Source: Streptosporangium album (lineage in GTDB: Bacteria > Actinomycetota > Actinomycetes > Streptosporangiales > Streptosporangiaceae). From it: a stretch of DNA of 64,000 bases. This document shows, piece after piece, positions 7,077-56,379 of the stretch (its first letter is position 1; every line of letters begins with the position of its first letter). The notes beneath the pieces are model-generated. The model was not told where the DNA came from. It was given only the letters and a program-made list of their open reading frames with translations, and made no database searches. The stretch covers positions 620,001 to 684,000 of the forward strand of contig NZ_JACHJU010000002.1 of assembly GCF_014203795.1 (NCBI RefSeq), read 5' to 3'. The position numbers and the translations under genes were made by a program.

Positions 7077-7406
7077 CTATCCGTCCACGACCGCGTAGGC
7101 GCGGACAGGGAAGGTACCCATGCCCACGACCATCGGCGGGGCGGCGTGGAAGCGGAATCCCGTGTCGGGGAGCGCCGCCGGGCCGGTCATGTGCTCCACG
7201 ATCGGGATGCCCGCACCGAGCAGGAGCGTGTGCGCGGGACGCTCTCCGTGGTAGGCCGAGTTGATCATCAGGGCGATCGACCCGACGAGATTGAGGACCT
7301 GGTACGGCATGCCGTCCCCGGCCATCCGGGAGGTTGAGACCATGGCGTAGCCGTACAGCATGACGCCGGCGCCGATCCAGCCGAGCGCGTTGAGAAGGAG
7401 GAGCAC
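7077..7406 (-). pseudogene. Chimeric ORF: CBU_0592-like membrane protein head joined to cyclase tail
   Basis: The 109-aa frame joins two unrelated families. Residues 1-57 (NALGWIGAGVMLYGYAMVST through LMINSAYHGERP) look like the first helices of the small CBU_0592-type membrane proteins. Residues ~58-109 (LLGAGIPIVEHMTG, then FRFHAAPPMVVGMGTFPVR) look like the last ~50 residues of a cyclase/arylformamidase-family enzyme. The natural reading is a deletion that removed the end of one gene and nearly all of the next, leaving an in-frame fusion. The cyclase metal-binding motif is absent, so no catalysis is expected. The GTG start at 7406 has a weak ribosome binding site. Confidence 0.6.
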
Positions 7407-7455
7407 CGGATCACACGCCGGGTGCGGAGGTGGGCATGTCCCAATGATCCTGGCT

Positions 7456-7470
7456 CTCTTTTCTAAAGAG
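7456..7470. promoter_or_regulatory. Inverted repeat CTCTTT-TCT-AAAGAG upstream of lysR-type gene
   Basis: Perfect 6-bp arms with a 3-bp spacer sit in the AT-rich intergenic region between the minus-strand chimera and the LysR-type gene starting at 7510. The dyad is a candidate operator, possibly for autoregulation. It could also be a short hairpin terminator. Confidence 0.35.
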
Positions 7471-7509
7471 CAAGTAAAGTCTTCTTAATGTCAACGTAAG
7501 CTTAGCTTT

Positions 7510-8457
7510 ATGGATATCGATCCTCGGCGGCTGCGGATACTGCACGAGGTGGCACGGCGCGGTGGCGTCATGCGCGCGGCCGAGGCGCTGCACCTGACCG
7601 CCTCGGCGGTCTCTCAGCAGCTCGCCCTCCTGGAGCGGGAGGTCGGCCTCGCCCTCGTCGACCGGTCGCAGCGCAGGGTGGCGCTCACCCCGGTCGGCCG
7701 GGTCCTCGCCGGATACGCCGAGCGGATCGAGGAGGAGCTGGCCGAGGCGAAACGGGAGCTGACCCGGTTCGCCGAGCTGCTGGCCGGGCCGGTGACGATC
7801 GCGGCGTTCCCCACGGCCATCCGGCACCTGCTGGTTCCCGCGCTGGGCACGCTGGCCGAACGCCACCCACAGATCAGGCCCCACATCCGGGAGCTGTACG
7901 GCCCGCCCGCACTGCAGGAGCTCCGTCTCGGTGGCATCGATCTGGCCATCACCGAGCAGGATGCCGACAAACCCGTCCCCGCGCGGTCCTCGACCGTCCT
8001 CCACCCCCTTCACGTGGACGAATATCGCATCGTGGCGCCGCCGAGCTGGACCCGGATCCCGCGTGAGGCCGCGGAGCTGGGCGGGGTGCCCTGGGTGGCG
8101 GGACCGGCCGACCAGGCCTGTGGGCACGCGCTGGACCGGCTGGCCACCCTGCACGGCTTCACCCCGCACCGGGCCCACGTGATCGAGGAGTTCCCGCCCG
8201 CCCTCGCTCTGGTCGCGGCGGGGCACGGGGTGGCGATCGTGCCGTCGCTGGCCCTGCTGGAGGTCCCGGCCGGCGAGGTCGTGGTCACCGGCATCACCGG
8301 GGTGGGCGCCCGGCGTCTGGACGCCGTCACCCGCGTCAGCCGCACCCGCTCGGGAGAGCCAGGCCCGGTTCAGGCCGTGGTCATCGCCGCGCTCAGGGAG
8401 GCCGCCGAGGGCCTCGCGGCGCGGCTCGGGGAGCACCGGGAAGGGGTCAGTCGGTGA
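7510..8457 (+). CDS. LysR-family transcriptional regulator
   Basis: A 315-aa regulator. The N-terminal winged HTH (LRILHEVARRGGVMRAAEAL, then SAVSQQLALLEREVGLALVDR) is typical LysR, and residues ~95-300 form the periplasmic-binding-protein-like effector domain (GPVTIAAFPTAIRHLLVPAL). LysR regulators usually control a divergent neighbour; here that neighbour is a deletion chimera ending in a cyclase tail, so the original target may be lost. ATG 7510 follows an AT-rich leader with no strong ribosome binding site. The 3' end overlaps the convergent gene at 8447 by about 10 bp. Confidence 0.88.
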   Translation: MDIDPRRLRILHEVARRGGVMRAAEALHLTASAVSQQLALLEREVGLALVDRSQRRVALTPVGRVLAGYAERIEEELAEAKRELTRFAELLAGPVTIAAFPTAIRHLLVPALGTLAERHPQIRPHIRELYGPPALQELRLGGIDLAITEQDADKPVPARSSTVLHPLHVDEYRIVAPPSWTRIPREAAELGGVPWVAGPADQACGHALDRLATLHGFTPHRAHVIEEFPPALALVAAGHGVAIVPSLALLEVPAGEVVVTGITGVGARRLDAVTRVSRTRSGEPGPVQAVVIAALREAAEGLAARLGEHREGVSR

Positions 8458-34109: not shown

Positions 34110-35894
34110 TCAGGCGGGCGTCTCGCGCCAGCGGTTGGTGATGGGCAGGCGGCGGTCGCGGCCGAAGTTCTTGAGGGTGATCTTCGGGCCCGGGGGATAC
34201 TGGCGGCGCTTGTACTCGGCGAGGTCGACCAGGCGGATGACGCGGGCGACCAGGGCGGGGTCGTGGCCGGCGGCGATCAGCTCGGCGGAGCCCATGTCCT
34301 TTTCGACGTAGTCGTCCAGCAGGCGGTCCAGCACGTCATACTCCGGCAGGGAGTCGGTGTCGCGCTGGTCGGGGCGGAGCTCGGCGCTGGGCTCCTTCTC
34401 GATGGAGTTCTCCGGGATCGGCGGCACCGTGAAGCCGTGCAGGAACGCGCCCGAGATGCCCGCCTGGGCGTTGCGCCAGCGCGACAGCCTCCACACCTCG
34501 GTCTTCAGCACGTCCTTGATGGGGGCGAAACCGCCCGCGGAGTCGCCGTAGAGGGTGGAGTAGCCGGTGGCCAGCTCGCTCTTGTTGCCGGTGGTGAGCA
34601 CCAGGTGGCCGTGCTGGTTGGACAGTCCCATCAGGATCATGCCGCGCACCCGGGCCTGGAGGTTCTCCGCGGCCAGGCCGGACAGCTCGATCTCCTTCTC
34701 GAAGCCGTCCACGATGTCGGCGATCGGCACGACCCGGGCGTTGATCCCCTGCCGGCGGACCAGCTCCCAGGCGTCCTCCAGAGAGTGCTCCGAGGAGTAG
34801 GGCGAGGGCATCATGACCACGTGCACCCGGTCGGGGCCGATCGCGTCGGAGGCGATCGCCGCGGTCAGGGCCGAGTCGATCCCGCCGGACAGGCCCAGGA
34901 TGACCGAATCGAAGCCGTTCTTGGCCACGTAGTCGCGGACCGCGAGGACCAGTGCCGAGTAGATCTCGGCGCTGTCGTCGAGGTGCGGGGCGATCGACGG
35001 GGGCTCCGGAGCGTACGGCTCGACGGGGAAGGCCGACAGCTCGATCCGCTCCACCGTGATGACGGTCCCGTCCCCGGCGTCCACCTGGAAGGTGCCCAGC
35101 CCGCCGAACCTGGCCTCGGGCAGCTCCAGGTCGGTGATCAGCAGCTCCTCGGCGAACTGCGCGGCCCGCGCGACCAGCTCGCCGGAGGCCGAGACGATGA
35201 TCGAGTCGCCGTCGAATACCAGCTCGTCCTGGCCGCCCACCTGGTTGACGTAGGCGAGGGCGCAGCCCGCCTCCCGTGCCCGGCGGGAGACGAGTGCGAG
35301 CCGCACGTCGTCCTTCTCCTTCTCGTACGGCGAGGCGTTCGGCACCACCAGCAGCCCGGCTCCCGCCTCGGCCACCACCGCGACCGGCCCGCCCTCCTGC
35401 CACAGGTCCTCGCAGACCGCGATCGCCACGTCGACCCCGTGCAGCCGGAAGACGGGCAGCCGGTCCCCGCGCACGAAGTAGCGGTATTCGTCGAAGACGC
35501 CGTAGTTCTGCAGGTGGTGCTTGGCGGTCTTGGTGACCACCTGGCCCCGGTGGAGCAGCGCGGCCGCGTCGAGCGGGGAGCCCTTGGGCTGCCCCACGCG
35601 CGGCGCCAGGTCCGCCCGGTCCACGTAGCCGACGATCACCGGGATCTCACCGAGTCCCTCGTCGGCCAGCCGCCGGGCGAGGGCCCCGACCGCGGTGATG
35701 GAGGCTTCCACGAATGAGCTGCGCAGCACCAGATCCTCGACCGGATACCCGGTCAGGAACATCTCGGTGAACACCACCAGATGCGCGCCGCGGTCGGCGG
35801 CGCGCCGGGTCCACTGGATGAGCTTGTCGGTGTTTGCCGCCAGGTCGCCGACTACGGGATCGGTCTGGGCCAGAGCGATACGGAGTTGAGCCAC
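34110..35894 (-). CDS. nadE: Glutamine-dependent NAD+ synthetase
   Basis: A 594-aa two-domain enzyme converting nicotinate adenine dinucleotide to NAD+ with glutamine as nitrogen donor. The N-terminal nitrilase-like glutaminase has the Glu-Lys-Cys triad regions VVFTEMFLTGYP, KTAKHHLQNYGVF and VAICEDLWQEGG. The C-terminal synthetase has the PP-loop ILGLSGGIDSALTAAIAS and TTGNKSELATGY. GTG 35894 gives the family start (V/M-AQLRIALAQ) with GGGTGG upstream; GTG 35903 is an alternative. Monocistronic. Confidence 0.95.
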   Translation of the reverse strand: MAQLRIALAQTDPVVGDLAANTDKLIQWTRRAADRGAHLVVFTEMFLTGYPVEDLVLRSSFVEASITAVGALARRLADEGLGEIPVIVGYVDRADLAPRVGQPKGSPLDAAALLHRGQVVTKTAKHHLQNYGVFDEYRYFVRGDRLPVFRLHGVDVAIAVCEDLWQEGGPVAVVAEAGAGLLVVPNASPYEKEKDDVRLALVSRRAREAGCALAYVNQVGGQDELVFDGDSIIVSASGELVARAAQFAEELLITDLELPEARFGGLGTFQVDAGDGTVITVERIELSAFPVEPYAPEPPSIAPHLDDSAEIYSALVLAVRDYVAKNGFDSVILGLSGGIDSALTAAIASDAIGPDRVHVVMMPSPYSSEHSLEDAWELVRRQGINARVVPIADIVDGFEKEIELSGLAAENLQARVRGMILMGLSNQHGHLVLTTGNKSELATGYSTLYGDSAGGFAPIKDVLKTEVWRLSRWRNAQAGISGAFLHGFTVPPIPENSIEKEPSAELRPDQRDTDSLPEYDVLDRLLDDYVEKDMGSAELIAAGHDPALVARVIRLVDLAEYKRRQYPPGPKITLKNFGRDRRLPITNRWRETPA

Positions 35895-35980
35895 GTGCTC
35901 CACCCTATTCCCGTCGATGAACAGGCACTCTCACGGGTGATCGCCGATCCGGCGGGTCAGCACCTCGATATCGCGTGCGG

Positions 35981-36702: not shown

Positions 36703-37195
36703 TCAGGCCCGGCCGGCCGGGATCGGCAGGACGGCCTCCACCAGTGTGCCGCCGCCGGGGGCCTCACCGATCACGCACGTCCCGCCGAGTTCGGCGGCGC
36801 GCTCGCGCATGGACAGCAGGCCCACGCCGGAACGCGACCCCGCCGACAGCCCGTGGGCGGGTCCAGGTGGGCGGCCTGCGACAGCATGTCGGACTCCGGC
36901 CGCTGCAGGGTGGCACCGAGGTCGAGGCCGAGCTCGTCGCGGAGCACCGTCCTGGCCCGCGCCGGGGCGCGCCGCAGCCGCGACACGTATCCCTGGATGG
37001 TCGACAGCGCCTGGGCGGGAGGTTCGCCCGGCCAGAGCTCGTCGATGAGCATGCTTGCCGGGACGGCGCGACCACCCGCTACGAGAAGCCGGGCCGGCAC
37101 CGCCATCTGGCGTTGACCGCCGAGGTCGAGCGCCACGCCGCCGTGACACGCCTGGAACGGTCCTAAGGCACGAAATGTCAGTATTTCAGGGGCAA
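36703..37195 (-). pseudogene. Composite relic: SARP regulator head and tail joined to sensor-kinase C-terminus
   Basis: Reading leftward, the first frame gives LTFRALGPFQACHGGVALDL, then SMLIDELWPGEPPAQALSTI and QGYVSRLRRA, the winged-helix DNA-binding domain of a SARP/AfsR-type regulator. It jumps directly to ARTVLRDELGLDLGATLQ, the end of a BTAD domain, skipping most of it. Near 36850 the frame changes and reads SGVGLLSMRERAAELGGTCV then GTLVEAVLPI to the stop at 36703, the last ~35 residues of a NarL-type kinase HATPase. Two deletions fused three gene pieces. No function is likely. Confidence 0.65.
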
Positions 37196-37537
37196 GCGTA
37201 GAGCCACCTGGTCGTACGTCATACGGCAATTCCCGCCATCGTTCGCAAGCTGTAAGAGATCAACAGCCGTCAGATTTTCACATCCACAGCGAGCGACGGA
37301 TCGGAAACACCCTGCCCAGGCCCTCGGCCTTCTCCGCCCTGCTCAGAAGGACCGTAACGGGCGCGGACCGCAGACCGATCAACAAGCGTTCAACGCGGGA
37401 CCGACGCCGTACGGCGTCGCAGCGCCGGACCGAGCGCGAGCAGGCCCGCCGCCGCTTCGGCCGCGAGGTCGTCTACCGCCGCACCCCGGTGGGCGACTCC
37501 CTGATCTGTGCGTCCTGACAGGCCGGTGGCGACGCGG
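37196..37537. other. Intergenic region with short coding-like relic
   Basis: No intact gene is visible. A perfect 16-bp palindrome GACGCCGTACGGCGTC lies at 37403-37418. Downstream, the plus strand reads QARRRFGREVVYRRTPVGDS to a TGA just before 37520, which looks coding-like but lacks a start and a known family. It separates the SARP/kinase relic from the end of the terpene synthase operon and may be further decayed sequence. Confidence 0.35.
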
Positions 37538-38593
37538 TCACGCCATGCCGTACCTGCTGGACTCCAGGAGCCATTCCAGCTGCGCCCTGGGAGCCGCGAG
37601 AAACGCGCACGCCACCTTGCTGAGGTCTCTGGCCTGCGCCGCCGGAAGCCCGAACCGGTCGAACATCTCCGGCAGCCGCATGGCGGCGGTCCGCAGATCG
37701 TCGGCGCGTTCGGCGATCCGGTCGTTCACCCACGCGACGGCGCCGGCGTCCGAGAGCCCGAACGCGGCCGCGGCGACCGTCACGTAGTTGTGCACGTCCC
37801 CGTTCGCGCGCTCCTTCGGATACGACGCCACGTCGTTGCACCACGCGGTCACGTCGTTGCAGGCGTCCACCAGCGTCCGCCAGGTCGTGCTCTCCCGCAG
37901 CGCCGGCGGCACCTCCACCCCCAGGCACGGTTCCACGAGGTCGAACAGGTAGGGCCCGGCCGTTCCCCGCCGGAGCGCCGGATACTCCTCGGCCGAGGGC
38001 ACCCGGCCGGCGCGCCTGTTGTCCGCCTCGCTACGGCAGGCCGCCCCCTGCTCGCGCAGTCCCCGGGCGAACCGCTCCCGCCAGTGCGTGCTCATCCGCT
38101 CGGCGGTGAGACGCCAGAGATCCTGGAAGGCCACCTCGACCGGCGTGCCGGCCGTCGCCCGGACCGGCGGGACGGCCTCCCTCCGGGACGGTACGGCGCA
38201 CGCCAGCCGCCCGAGGCGGGTGAAGGCGGCCTCCACGATCTCGGCCGCGCACCCGGCGGGCTTCTCGTCCCACTCGTCGTCGAAGTGGAACAGCCAGGTC
38301 AGCCACTTGGCGAACAGCAGCGCCGCGTCCATGCCGAATCCCGCGAGGGCGCGCCCGGCCATCCGCTCGAACCTCGCCCCCTCGGGCAGCTCCAGGCCGA
38401 CCTCGCGGGCCCATCCGGCGAGGGAGACCTCGATCCGGTCGACGGAGGGGTGCATGCGGCACGGTGCGGCCATCGCGGGGATCCGGTCGACGAGAGGCAG
38501 CAGCAGCGCCGCGGCCACCGCGTCCGTCCTCTTCCGCGGTGGCCGGGTTCTCGTCTCGTCCGCTGTTCTGATGGTCGTATCGGCGAGCATCAC
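37538..38593 (-). CDS. Class I terpene synthase
   Basis: A 351-aa cyclase of the bacterial sesqui/diterpene synthase fold. The first metal motif is FHFDDEWDE (Asp105, Asp106, Asp109); the NSE triad is CNDVASYPKE with Asn253, Ser257 and Glu261. PYLFDLVEPCLGVEVP lies in the G-helix region and ESSRYGMA closes the protein. All Mg-pyrophosphate ligands expected for ionisation are present, so it is probably active; the product cannot be predicted. The GTG start at 38593 overlaps the stop of the EF-hand gene, so it is translated third in the operon. No prenyltransferase or P450 is adjacent. Confidence 0.88.
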   Translation of the reverse strand: MMLADTTIRTADETRTRPPRKRTDAVAAALLLPLVDRIPAMAAPCRMHPSVDRIEVSLAGWAREVGLELPEGARFERMAGRALAGFGMDAALLFAKWLTWLFHFDDEWDEKPAGCAAEIVEAAFTRLGRLACAVPSRREAVPPVRATAGTPVEVAFQDLWRLTAERMSTHWRERFARGLREQGAACRSEADNRRAGRVPSAEEYPALRRGTAGPYLFDLVEPCLGVEVPPALRESTTWRTLVDACNDVTAWCNDVASYPKERANGDVHNYVTVAAAAFGLSDAGAVAWVNDRIAERADDLRTAAMRLPEMFDRFGLPAAQARDLSKVACAFLAAPRAQLEWLLESSRYGMA

Positions 38594-39132
38594 TACAGCG
38601 GACCGAACAGCCAGTTACCGGCCGCGTGCGGGTCGGCGCTCGTGTAGTACTGCCGGACGGCCTCGACCAGCTCGCCGACCGGGATGATCCCGTCGTAGTC
38701 CCGGTCGAGCCGGTCGAAGGCGGCGTCCACGTCGTCGTGCGCCGTGCCGAAGGCGGTCAGCATGACCCGGAACCCGGCGGGCCTGACAGCACCGTCCCCG
38801 TCGTCGTCGCACAGCGCCGCGATCGCCTCCGCCACCGGCCGCAACACCGCGTCGAACCGGTCGCCCTCGACGAACGCCGAGATCATGGCGGAGCGGAACT
38901 CCTTCGGGGAGATCGCGCCCTCGGCGTCGACCCCCGCAGACAGGGTCTGCCAGAGCGACTCGAACCCGCCGGTGAGCCTGCTGCCGGTGGGCGAGGTCGG
39001 TGACTCGCCGAAGCCGATCAGGATCCGGGCTCCGAGCCCGAGCAGGTCGTCGCGTTCGATCTTCCCGTTGCCGTTCACGTCCATATGCGCGAAAGCGCGG
39101 TCCAGTTTGTGATGGAGAAGCTCTGTGCTCAT
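38593..39132 (-). CDS. EF-hand calcium-binding protein (calerythrin-like)
   Basis: A 179-aa protein with the four-EF-hand plan of bacterial calerythrin/sarcoplasmic calcium-binding proteins. Loop 1 is DVNGNGKIERDD (18-29), canonical. Loop 2 near 65-78 is degenerate. Loop 3 is DDDGDGAVRPAG (109-120), with Gly instead of Glu at position 12. Loop 4 is DRDYDGIIPVGE (143-154), canonical. It has no signal peptide, so it senses or buffers cytosolic calcium. It is sandwiched between two terpene synthase-family genes with a 34-bp gap upstream and a stop/start overlap downstream, implying a shared job. Confidence 0.9.
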   Translation of the reverse strand: MSTELLHHKLDRAFAHMDVNGNGKIERDDLLGLGARILIGFGESPTSPTGSRLTGGFESLWQTLSAGVDAEGAISPKEFRSAMISAFVEGDRFDAVLRPVAEAIAALCDDDGDGAVRPAGFRVMLTAFGTAHDDVDAAFDRLDRDYDGIIPVGELVEAVRQYYTSADPHAAGNWLFGPL

Positions 39133-39166
39133 CGTGACCCCCGTGTTACGTCGCGGACTCAGACGG

Positions 39167-40054
39167 TTACCGCAAGTGACGATAGCGGGATGATTCCAGA
39201 AGCCACTCCAAGTAAGCCCTGGGAATGGTCAAGAAAGCACAGGCCACCTGGATCACCTCGCGGGAGGCGGCGAGGCCGAGGCCGTGCCGTTCCAGGACCG
39301 GGGGGATCGCGCGGGCGGCGGCCCACAACTCCTCCATCCGGGCCACCAGGCGGTCGATCACCCACCGCTCGGCCGCCTCGCCGCGCAGGCTCGGCGAGGC
39401 CGAGGCCGACGTCACGTAGCCACTCCCGGTGACCAGGTCGTGGCACCAGGCGGCCACGTCGCCGCTCGCATCGAGGACCGCCCGCCACTGGGCGCTCTCC
39501 CGGACCGGTGCGGGCACCTCGACCCCCGTACAGGGCTCCACCAGGTCGAACAGGTAGGAGCCGAACCCGGCCCTGCCCAGGGCCGGGTAGTCCTCGACCG
39601 GCGGTGTCCGGGGGTCGAGCAGCGCCGCGTGCTGGGCGGCCAGCCCGGCCAGGAAGCGCTCACGCCATCCGCCGCCCATCCCGGGCGCGCAGGTCCGCCA
39701 CAGGTCGGCGAAGGCCCGTTCCAGCGGCGGCCCGGGCTCGCCGCCCGCGGCCACGGCGATCACCCCGGCGGACGCCGAGGGCTCCTCGCGGAGGTGGGAC
39801 GTCCAGGTCAGCCAGCGCGCGAACAGCGTGGCCGTGGCTGTGCCGTACCGGGCGAACGCCCGCCCGGCCAGCAGATGGGCGCCCGCCCCGGGGGCGGTGC
39901 CCAGGCCGACCTCGCGTGACCAGTCGATGACCGCGGCCTCGATCTGGTACATCGACGGGTGAACCGGGCACGGGGCCCTCATCGCCGCCAGCCGCTCGCT
40001 GAGCGAGATCGGCGGACCTGTCCCGCTTGGTGATCTGTCACGTTCGGTGCGCAT
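39167..40054 (-). CDS. Terpene synthase-fold protein lacking catalytic motifs (pseudoenzyme)
   Basis: A 295-aa paralogue of the synthase at 37538-38593. Shared blocks include WRERF, EDYPALGR, SYLFDLVEPCTGVEVP, AWCHD, ACAFLTIPRAYLEWLLESS. At the first metal site DDEWD is replaced by REEPS (Arg89, Glu90, Ser93). At the NSE triad Asn, Ser and Glu become His205, Thr209 and Tyr213, and about 30 residues after the first motif are missing. It cannot bind the Mg cluster in the normal way. The frame is intact and coding quality good, so it is likely a functional non-catalytic partner rather than a pseudogene. It is first in the operon. Confidence 0.82.
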   Translation of the reverse strand: MRTERDRSPSGTGPPISLSERLAAMRAPCPVHPSMYQIEAAVIDWSREVGLGTAPGAGAHLLAGRAFARYGTATATLFARWLTWTSHLREEPSASAGVIAVAAGGEPGPPLERAFADLWRTCAPGMGGGWRERFLAGLAAQHAALLDPRTPPVEDYPALGRAGFGSYLFDLVEPCTGVEVPAPVRESAQWRAVLDASGDVAAWCHDLVTGSGYVTSASASPSLRGEAAERWVIDRLVARMEELWAAARAIPPVLERHGLGLAASREVIQVACAFLTIPRAYLEWLLESSRYRHLR

Positions 40055-40194: not shown

Positions 40195-40210
40195 GTAACG
40201 TGTGCGAAAC
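40195..40210 (+). promoter_or_regulatory. GlnR-box-like site GTAAC-N6-GAAAC upstream of glnA2
   Basis: GTAAC at 40195-40199 and GAAAC at 40206-40210 match the a-b half-sites (GTNAC-N6-GAAAC) described for GlnR in Streptomyces. The site ends 71 bp before the glnA2 start and also lies upstream of the divergent terpene operon. A second a-b pair expected in strong sites is not evident. Confidence 0.55.
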
Positions 40211-40281
40211 ACGGAGCGGGCAGACTGGGAGAAGACCAGGCGTGTCGCACCGCGTCGGTGTCGGAAGTGAAGGAGAAGGCC

Positions 40282-41643
40282 TTGGACCGCCAGCAGGAGT
40301 TCGTTCTCCGCACCCTTGAGGAGCGCGACATCCGGTTCATCCGGCTCTGGTTCACCGACGTGCTCGGGTTCCTCAAGTCGGTGGCGATCGCCCCCGCCGA
40401 GCTCGAAGGGGCCTTCGCCGAGGGCATCGGCTTCGACGGTTCGGCGATCGAGGGCTTCGCCCGGGTCTACGAGTCGGACATGCTGGCCAAGCCGGACCCG
40501 TCGACGTTCCAGATCCTGCCCTGGCGCAGCGAGACGCCGGGCGCGGCCAGGATGTTCTGCGACATCCTCATGCCGGACGGCTCGCCCTCGCACGCCGACC
40601 CGCGCTGGGTGCTCAAGCGCACCCTGGCCAGGGCCTCCGACATGGGGTTCAGCTTCTACACCCACCCCGAGGTCGAGTTCTTCCTGCTGAAGAACCGGCC
40701 CGAGCGCGGTGCGCGCCCCGAGCCGATCGACGACGGCGGCTACTTCGACCACACCCCGCACAGTTCGGGTCACGACTTCCGGCGCAACGCGATCATGATG
40801 CTGGAGTCGATGGGGATCTCGGTCGAATACAGCCACCACGAGGGCGGTCCCGGTCAGCAGGAGATCGACCTGCGCTACGCCGACGCGCTCACCACCGCCG
40901 ACAACATCATGACCTTCCGCCTGGTCATGAAGGAGGTCGCGCTGGAGCAGGGCATCTGGGCGAGCTTCATGCCCAAGCCCTTCACCGAGCACCCCGGCTC
41001 CGGCATGCACACCCACATGTCGCTGTTCGAGGGTGACCGCAACGCCTTCTACGAGCCCGGCGCGGACTACCAGCTCTCCAAGGTCGGCCGCTCCTTCATC
41101 GGCGGCCTGCTCAGGCACGCCGCCGAGATCACCGCGGTCTGTAACCAGTGGGTGAACTCCTACAAGCGCCTCTGGGGCGGGGCCGAGGCGATCGCCGGGG
41201 CCGGCGGCGAGGCCCCCAGCTACGTCTCCTGGGGCCACAACAACCGCTCGGCCCTGGTCCGGGTGCCGATGTACAAGCCGCACAAGAGCGGCTCCACCCG
41301 CATCGAGTTCCGCTCGCTCGACTCGGCCTGCAACCCCTACCTCGCCTTCGCGGTGATCCTGGCCGCGGGCCTGAAGGGCATCGAGGAGGGCTACGAGATG
41401 CCCCCCGGCGCCGAGGACGACGTCTGGGCGCTGACCTCCGTCGAGCGCCGCGCGCTGGGCATCCAGCCGCTGCCCCAGTCGCTGGACGAGGCCATCGCGG
41501 TCATGGAGCGCAGCGAGCTGGTCGCCGAGACCCTCGGGGAGCACGTCTTCGACTACTTCCTGCGCAACAAGCGGAGCGAGTGGAACGAATACCGCCGCCA
41601 GGTCACCGAATTCGAGCTAGGCCGGTATCTTCCTGTGCTGTAG
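40282..41643 (+). CDS. glnA2: Glutamine synthetase-like protein GlnA2
   Basis: A 453-aa class I GS-fold ligase. It matches mycobacterial GlnA2 along its length: DRQQEFVLRTLEERDIRFIR at the start, PEVEFFLLK, GPGQQEIDLRYADAL, GSGMHTHMSLFEG, RSALVRVPMYKPHKSGSTR and FDYFLRNKRSEWNEYR at the end. The adenylylation-site segment of true GlnA (NLYxLPPEE) is replaced by GYEMPPGAEDDVW, so it should not be GlnE-regulated. In Streptomyces, GlnA2 acts as a gamma-glutamylpolyamine synthetase. TTG 40282 is chosen because GAAGGAG precedes it and the product then begins as GlnA2 does. A GlnR-like box lies upstream. Confidence 0.92.
   Translation: MDRQQEFVLRTLEERDIRFIRLWFTDVLGFLKSVAIAPAELEGAFAEGIGFDGSAIEGFARVYESDMLAKPDPSTFQILPWRSETPGAARMFCDILMPDGSPSHADPRWVLKRTLARASDMGFSFYTHPEVEFFLLKNRPERGARPEPIDDGGYFDHTPHSSGHDFRRNAIMMLESMGISVEYSHHEGGPGQQEIDLRYADALTTADNIMTFRLVMKEVALEQGIWASFMPKPFTEHPGSGMHTHMSLFEGDRNAFYEPGADYQLSKVGRSFIGGLLRHAAEITAVCNQWVNSYKRLWGGAEAIAGAGGEAPSYVSWGHNNRSALVRVPMYKPHKSGSTRIEFRSLDSACNPYLAFAVILAAGLKGIEEGYEMPPGAEDDVWALTSVERRALGIQPLPQSLDEAIAVMERSELVAETLGEHVFDYFLRNKRSEWNEYRRQVTEFELGRYLPVL

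Positions 41644-54102: not shown

Positions 54103-56379
<2,277 letters not shown>

Follow-up and report, generated by a model that had tools for sequence, protein, structure and literature searches.

A terpene synthase operon beside glnA

The window studied here, 64,000 nucleotides of the Streptosporangium album contig NZ_JACHJU010000002.1, contains three closely spaced minus-strand genes next to the glutamine synthetase gene glnA: a terpene synthase paralogue predicted to be catalytically dead, an EF-hand protein and an intact class I terpene synthase, referred to in the following as DEAD, EF and ACT. A reading made from the sequence alone had drawn attention to this trio at 37538-40054. All of the open reading frames lie where it placed them and the three genes are as it named them, but its title reverses the order of transcription, which runs DEAD, EF, ACT.

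ACT matches the Pfam family PF19086 (terpene synthase family 2) at 6.8e-45 (153.7 bits, cut-off 23.7). The features of class I terpene synthases, as given in the available text of PMC5082573, are the DDxxD motif, the NSE triad, a sensor arginine and an RY pair, and ACT carries DDEWD at residues 105-109, NDVASYPKE at 253-261, R208 and RY at 347-348. R208 aligns with the diphosphate-sensing arginine of T-muurolol synthase, which is named in the same text, and is for this reason taken to be the sensor. DDEWD is found in 16/16 orthologues of the genus, as are R208, N253, S257, E261 and the RY pair; the DDEWD count comes from the orthologue alignment, as one row of the larger alignment used for DEAD below is truncated at this motif. 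By its motifs ACT would thus be a normal-looking, terpene-forming class I synthase, and a sesquiterpene is the likely product in view of its closest families and of T-muurolol synthase, its closest solved relative by sequence. It stays below the cut-off of all 10 NCBIfam models that it matched. Orthology with the 4-epi-cubebol synthase of S. roseum (in the available text of PMC5082573) was considered and rejected, because ACT scores 54 bits with the corresponding NCBIfam model, whose cut-off is 500, and ACT is taken to be a different enzyme.

DEAD is 44% identical to ACT over 317 columns (E 1e-76) and also passes the PF19086 cut-off (6.4e-13, 49.3 bits), while no model outside terpene synthases was matched in Pfam or NCBIfam. 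In the window's copy the first aspartate of DDxxD is replaced by arginine (R89) and the last is removed by a four-residue gap, the NSE stretch reads HDLVTG followed by a gap, and glycine occupies the position of R208. For a view across copies, 18 DEAD sequences were aligned with 28 of the ACT type (16 from the genus, 12 others), and positions are given in ACT numbering. All 18 DEAD copies have arginine at D105 and a gap at D109; E261 falls in a gap in 17 and is threonine in one, asparagine is never found at N253 nor arginine at R208, and serine is present at S257 in three. None of the 18 aligned copies therefore has DDxxD, the sensor arginine or a full NSE triad, and losses so alike exclude a sequencing error. 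D254, adjoining the NSE triad, is retained in 13/18 and the RY pair in most (R347 in 16/18, Y348 in 17/18). On this pattern DEAD is a terpene synthase homologue predicted not to work, having lost its metal sites. Its AlphaFold2 model (alignment of 28 sequences) is all helical with a mean pLDDT of 86.4, and the 50 Foldseek matches listed are all described as terpene synthases; the best by E-value is the N-domain of geosmin synthase (5dw7, TM 0.77), and among the matches listed the TM score to solved synthases reaches 0.79. The class I fold is thus kept in the predicted structure. The gene is a single open frame over its matched length in 17/17 copies, with a G+C content at third codon positions (GC3) of 0.91. 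The earlier description of a paralogue stripped of both metal sites, with fold and frame kept, hence agrees with what the additional copies show.

Sixty-one alignment columns are conserved in DEAD and ACT alike, and R89 (18/18) and an MEELW stretch are conserved in DEAD and not so in ACT; in the conservation count that gave the 61 columns, one of two near-identical rows (genome G001 in our numbering) was omitted and two DEAD rows from outside the genus were not counted. Low-complexity insertions occur in the DEAD copies of G029 and G005, the former (L078 6504-7490) having a AGHGHGTATGHRT-like repeat inserted where the NSE loop was lost.

EF matches its best EF-hand profile at 1.1e-14, calerythrin at 1.1e-16 and the structure 3aka at 5.6e-21, the last being CabD according to the available portion of PMC10574481, and by sequence it belongs to the actinobacterial calerythrin/CabD family. 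Of its four EF positions in the window, loops 1 and 4 are canonical and loops 2 and 3 degenerate by a pattern of our own making. In 17 of 18 EF-ACT pairs, all but that of G083, the stop codon of EF shares one or four bases with a possible start codon of ACT; the count is based on possible starts, and alternative ACT start codons exist. Overlapping stop and start codons suggest translational coupling, and translation of EF and ACT is probably coupled. DEAD and EF are separated by 34-35 nt in 14/14 trios.

Table 1. Features of the terpene synthase locus in window coordinates
Feature	Position	Strand	Basis or remark
DEAD, putatively dead terpene synthase paralogue, 295 aa, first gene of the operon	39167-40054	-	PF19086, predicted class I fold, RY pair R290 Y291
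EF, predicted EF-hand protein of calerythrin/CabD type, 179 aa	38593-39132	-	profile and sequence matches
ACT, intact class I terpene synthase, 351 aa	37538-38593	-	motifs DDEWD, NDVASYPKE, R208, RY
ACT start codon	38593		GTG, or ATG as the following codon
TAGTG, EF stop and possible ACT start	38591-38595	-	one base in common
glnA, type I glutamine synthetase	40252-41643	+	divergent neighbour, constant flank of the locus; start codon approximate
nadE, NAD synthetase	34110-35903	-	NAD_synthase and CN_hydrolase domains; opposite flank of the synthase slot in many relatives
GTAACGTGTGCGAAAC, candidate GlnR-like box	40195-40210	+	glnA/DEAD intergenic region; match to GTNAC-n6-GNAAC

Distribution, descent and selection

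A first set of 25 loci comprised four Streptosporangium loci with the full trio and 21 Actinomadura loci with a terpene synthase, the latter having no EF match at 1e-6. At one of these, in Actinomadura sp. CNU-125 (L030 7656-9194), synthase matches are spread over three frames that overlap, which may reflect a broken gene or an error of assembly; the orthologue alignment skipped matches of fewer than 150 aligned residues, such as these fragments. Among 16 genomes of Streptosporangium, a genus of soil bacteria, DEAD, EF and ACT occur together in 14, EF and ACT in G007, and DEAD and ACT in G015. The G015 locus retains an EF remnant of 32 codons (L076 ~7110-7640), in which the EF start and an EF-like C-terminus are recognisable between DEAD and ACT, followed by proline-rich, GC-rich sequence up to ACT; on the strength of this remnant the EF gene is taken to be internally deleted. 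No EF profile match is left. Thirteen further genomes of the family, chosen for good matches, had their loci fetched: three contain EF with a synthase (G018, G083, whose ACT was flagged with an internal TGA, and G088), two only DEAD (G029, G058) and eight only a synthase. In G029 and G058 there is no EF match at E 0.001, and any remaining matches to ACT, beneath the matches listed, score lower than the DEAD pieces do. G678 has DEAD followed by a gene of the MFS type, with neither EF nor a second synthase in the fetched flanks, EF not having been sought in the rest of that genome.

Altogether, DEAD is found in 15/16 genomes of the genus and in three genomes of two other genera. EF is linked to a synthase in 15/16 genomes of the genus (the window's included), in three more that represent two further genera of this family, and in one case in another family. 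The co-occurrence that the sequence-only reading had proposed to look for therefore holds within the genus, and the EF linkage recurs outside this genome. DEAD and an active partner do not co-occur strictly, as DEAD stands alone at the locus in G029, G058 and G678, and ACT, paired with EF, lacks DEAD in G007, G018, G083 and G088. EF and ACT are the tighter pair within the trio, given their overlap in 17/18 cases, the presence of the pair in two further genera and the order EF, synthase, P450 in another family. The synthase slot beside glnA is old and is commonly occupied by a synthase in the family; the EF gene and the dead duplicate would be later arrivals.

A tree of 52 rows, which includes seven of the 21 Actinomadura synthases, places DEAD in one clade (100/100) and the ACT proteins of the genus in another (90/96), with largely the same species groupings in both. 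As DEAD is a single clade branching inside largely as ACT does, a single duplication followed by vertical descent accounts for the two. G029 and G058 are sister to DEAD of the genus, which makes the duplication older than the genus, and G007 is nested within the genus, so that DEAD was lost there. Whether G018 and G083 group with DEAD or ACT is left unsettled by the tree (94/87).

To assess the constraint on each protein, we estimated omega, the dN/dS ratio, over the genus under the MG model with F3X4 frequencies, removing columns filled in fewer than 80% of rows and using ACT of G005 from residue 139 on, as was also done for the branch rates and the 18 DEAD/28 ACT-type alignment. The values are 0.379 for DEAD, 0.225 for EF, 0.177 for ACT and 0.032 for GlnA, and for DEAD an omega of 1 is rejected, the log likelihood (lnL) being lower by 110. 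Pairwise Nei-Gojobori estimates for 11 chosen pairs of DEAD genes, which have branches in common, range from 0.33 to 0.86, with an upper 95% bound below 1 in seven. For G058 and G678, where the partners are absent at the locus, the single available pair gives 0.60 (0.41-0.87). DEAD is thus under relaxed but real purifying selection, and the dN/dS analysis that had been suggested for it finds a protein conserved in 15/16 genomes, maintained and loosely constrained, with a constraint that is not visibly tied to ACT. We also considered faster evolution after partner loss in G015, whose DEAD and ACT end branches are the longest in the genus, and dropped the idea because its GlnA third-position end branch is the longest too.

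EF-hand linkage elsewhere and the surroundings of the locus

We further inspected 47 loci around EF relatives outside the trio, a non-random sample of high-scoring matches, and examined gene lists for 22 of them. One locus, G147 from another family (L154 4999-8317), has a terpene synthase directly downstream, in the order EF, epi-isozizaene-synthase-like gene, P450; the other 46 have no terpene synthase within ~5 kb. The G147 synthase reaches 577.8 bits with the epi-isozizaene synthase model (cut-off 675) and the P450 773.9 bits with the albaflavenone monooxygenase model (cut-off 700), and nearby lie a gene for a polyprenyl synthetase and another synthase. This genome has a further epi-isozizaene-type synthase elsewhere. 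By our rough estimate, which assumes that only a few of the ~8,000 genes in a genome are of this type, about 0.03-0.1 chance adjacencies would be expected over 47 loci, so that the G147 arrangement is suggestive only. The idea of EF-hand proteins as general partners of epi-isozizaene-type synthases was rejected, as it applies to 1/30 loci.

In 4/22 loci (G006, G001, G035 and G331, of which the first two are the same place in close relatives) the EF gene lies directly upstream of polyketide synthase genes identified with Pfam (L100 7109-13862, L101 656-7764, L102 7192-13435, L135 4922-10768). With EF relatives adjoining polyketide synthase genes and an albaflavenone-type cassette, a recurrent link of this family to secondary metabolism is suggested. 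In G016 an EF gene adjoins glnA and nadE, and no synthase was found at the locus. The family is widespread in actinobacteria, 202/249 genomes of one family being matched with the G147 protein as query.

Around the trio itself, the pattern GTNAC-n6-GNAAC is matched in the intergenic region on the glnA side in 28/29 genomes, G088 having no match there; 27 have the form GTAAC-n6-GAAAC, and G034 has GTAAC in the second half. The window's copy, GTAACGTGTGCGAAAC, agrees with what we take to be the GlnR box consensus and would most simply serve the control of glnA; as a candidate box it could also link the terpene operon to nitrogen control. Downstream of ACT, a crude gene caller finds an MFS-type gene in 11/16 genomes of the genus and a divergent gene in 8/16, the MFS identity being backed by Pfam for the G678 copy only; neither was found in the window, and both were excluded from the parts of the system. 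Between a TetR gene and ACT, the window has apparent gene remnants on the minus strand (36706-37229): a putative histidine-kinase ATPase tail (PF02518 at 3.7e-4, under the model cut-off) and, overlapping it in another frame, a SARP-like N-terminus seen by eye only, with no Pfam match. About 15 kb from the trio, a minus-strand open frame of 758 aa (~54364-56103) has two PF19086 domains in a geosmin-synthase-like architecture.

A proposed coupled EF-ACT module and its alternatives

We tentatively favour, at rather less than even confidence, an explanation in which EF and ACT form a module beside glnA, with DEAD as a separable, non-catalytic accessory. The locus would be a vertically inherited terpene synthase slot, lying between glnA and nadE in many relatives. 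In the ancestor of Streptosporangium and its near relatives the EF gene would have joined the synthase gene and the synthase would have duplicated in tandem, presumably in this order, after which the glnA-proximal copy would have lost its metal-binding and sensor residues and been retained as a non-catalytic protein. EF and the intact synthase would constitute the core module, probably through coupled translation, and EF would most likely act on the synthase or, by binding Ca2+, on its ionic surroundings. DEAD would most likely be a non-catalytic binder of prenyl diphosphate or a terpenoid, or else modulate its paralogue by binding to it. Several observations weigh against this explanation. 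Two of the four EF loops in the window are non-canonical, and among 18 orthologues the same pattern finds anything between one and all four loops canonical, so that a conserved strong Ca2+ sensing is doubtful. In G015 EF is reduced to a remnant and ACT is retained, and the only departure in rate is a branch that is long in GlnA third positions too. Outside the family, EF adjoins a synthase at one of the 47 EF loci fetched, and the EF-hand is missing from the fetched flanks of the other epi-isozizaene-type loci (29/29). DEAD is missing from G007 and from 2/4 genomes of genus g44, is constrained only about half as tightly as ACT, and has a pairwise omega interval that reaches 1 in 4/11 pairs.

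We rank this coupled module above the proposal of the earlier reading, in which the three proteins together make up a single calcium-responsive complex, DEAD serving as a regulatory or scaffold subunit, in the manner of the plant GGPP synthase small subunits, a precedent for non-catalytic subunits in the available text of PMC11974751. Such a complex would fit the order and spacing fixed in 14/16 genomes, the selection on DEAD and the columns that DEAD and ACT conserve alike, and the selection and the recurrent EF linkage are the parts of that proposal that stand. An obligate complex is nevertheless unlikely, as each part also occurs where another is missing (G007 without DEAD, G015 without EF, and G029, G058 and G678 with neither EF nor ACT beside DEAD at the locus) and DEAD is constrained even where ACT is absent, in the one pair G058-G678. 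About as unlikely, in our judgement, is a synthase governed by calcium, in which the co-translated EF gates ACT. DEAD, which has arginine for the first aspartate and retains the RY pair, would then bind prenyl diphosphate or a terpenoid without metal as a sensor, chaperone or competing subunit.

We give lower credence again to DEAD being a slowly decaying passenger, kept open by its upstream position in the operon, where frameshifts would be polar, and not by any function of its protein. Its omega of twice that of ACT, the four pairwise intervals that extend to 1, its absence from G007 and two of the g44 genomes and the low-complexity insertions in G029 and G005 would agree with decay; the rejection of an omega of 1 by 110 lnL units at an estimate of 0.38, retention in 15/16 genomes and the positions conserved in DEAD alone speak against it, as does the G058-G678 pair, in which DEAD is open and constrained with no EF or ACT downstream. 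Ranked below this is EF as an ordinary calcium buffer that rides in the operon and does nothing specific to the synthase. For calerythrin and CabB an apparent role as calcium buffers or transporters is described (available portion of PMC10574481), and the wide occurrence of the family, the 46 of 47 loci with no terpene synthase within ~5 kb and the loss of EF in G015 are in line with such a role. Against it stand the codon overlap with ACT, the same partner in three genera and the relatives that immediately precede polyketide synthase genes and an albaflavenone-type cassette. That DEAD gained a metal-free catalytic activity is very improbable: the invariant arginine at the first catalytic aspartate and the mostly kept RY pair could be read in this way, yet the arginine's invariance may reflect common descent alone and no model outside terpene synthases was matched.

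To our knowledge, little is known about the regulation of bacterial terpene cyclases at the protein level. The trio, in which an EF-hand protein and a pseudo-cyclase under selection accompany a working enzyme, would offer a small, concrete and testable case. Considering the occurrence of the EF family beside polyketide synthase and albaflavenone-type genes, the part played by calcium-binding proteins in the secondary metabolism of actinobacteria may have been overlooked. As DEAD passes the Pfam cut-off, genome mining that counts PF19086 domains would score its family as enzymes.

Compared with known bacterial class I terpene synthases of PF19086, such as T-muurolol, pentalenene and epi-isozizaene synthases, ACT shares every defining motif while remaining under all matched NCBIfam cut-offs, and DEAD shares the fold without the residues for metal binding and diphosphate sensing. 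SSU-I and SSU-II, the small subunits of GGPP synthase in plants, resemble the trio in that a dead paralogue is kept alongside a working prenyl-diphosphate enzyme; they are, however, prenyltransferase subunits with reported heterodimers (available text of PMC11974751), whereas DEAD belongs to a terpene cyclase family and lies in a bacterial operon, and any interaction with its neighbours' products would be hypothetical. With the calerythrin/CabD proteins of actinomycetes EF shares the sequence family, a length of ~180 aa, four EF positions and a GNWLFG-like C-terminal tail, which is common to 55/87 EF open reading frames and was for this reason rejected as a mark of terpene partners; it differs in adjoining a terpene synthase with which it is probably co-translated, and in that loops 2 and 3 are often degenerate. 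The albaflavenone cassette of epi-isozizaene synthase and P450 has an EF gene directly upstream in its G147 copy, in contrast to the fetched flanks of the 29 other loci, and the G147 gene list contains no dead paralogue. In the literature searched by title and listing, with subscription papers mostly outside the search, we found no description of an EF-hand protein with a bacterial terpene synthase or of the dead family. Each component is of a known kind; their combination and the selected pseudo-cyclase are new within the literature searched.

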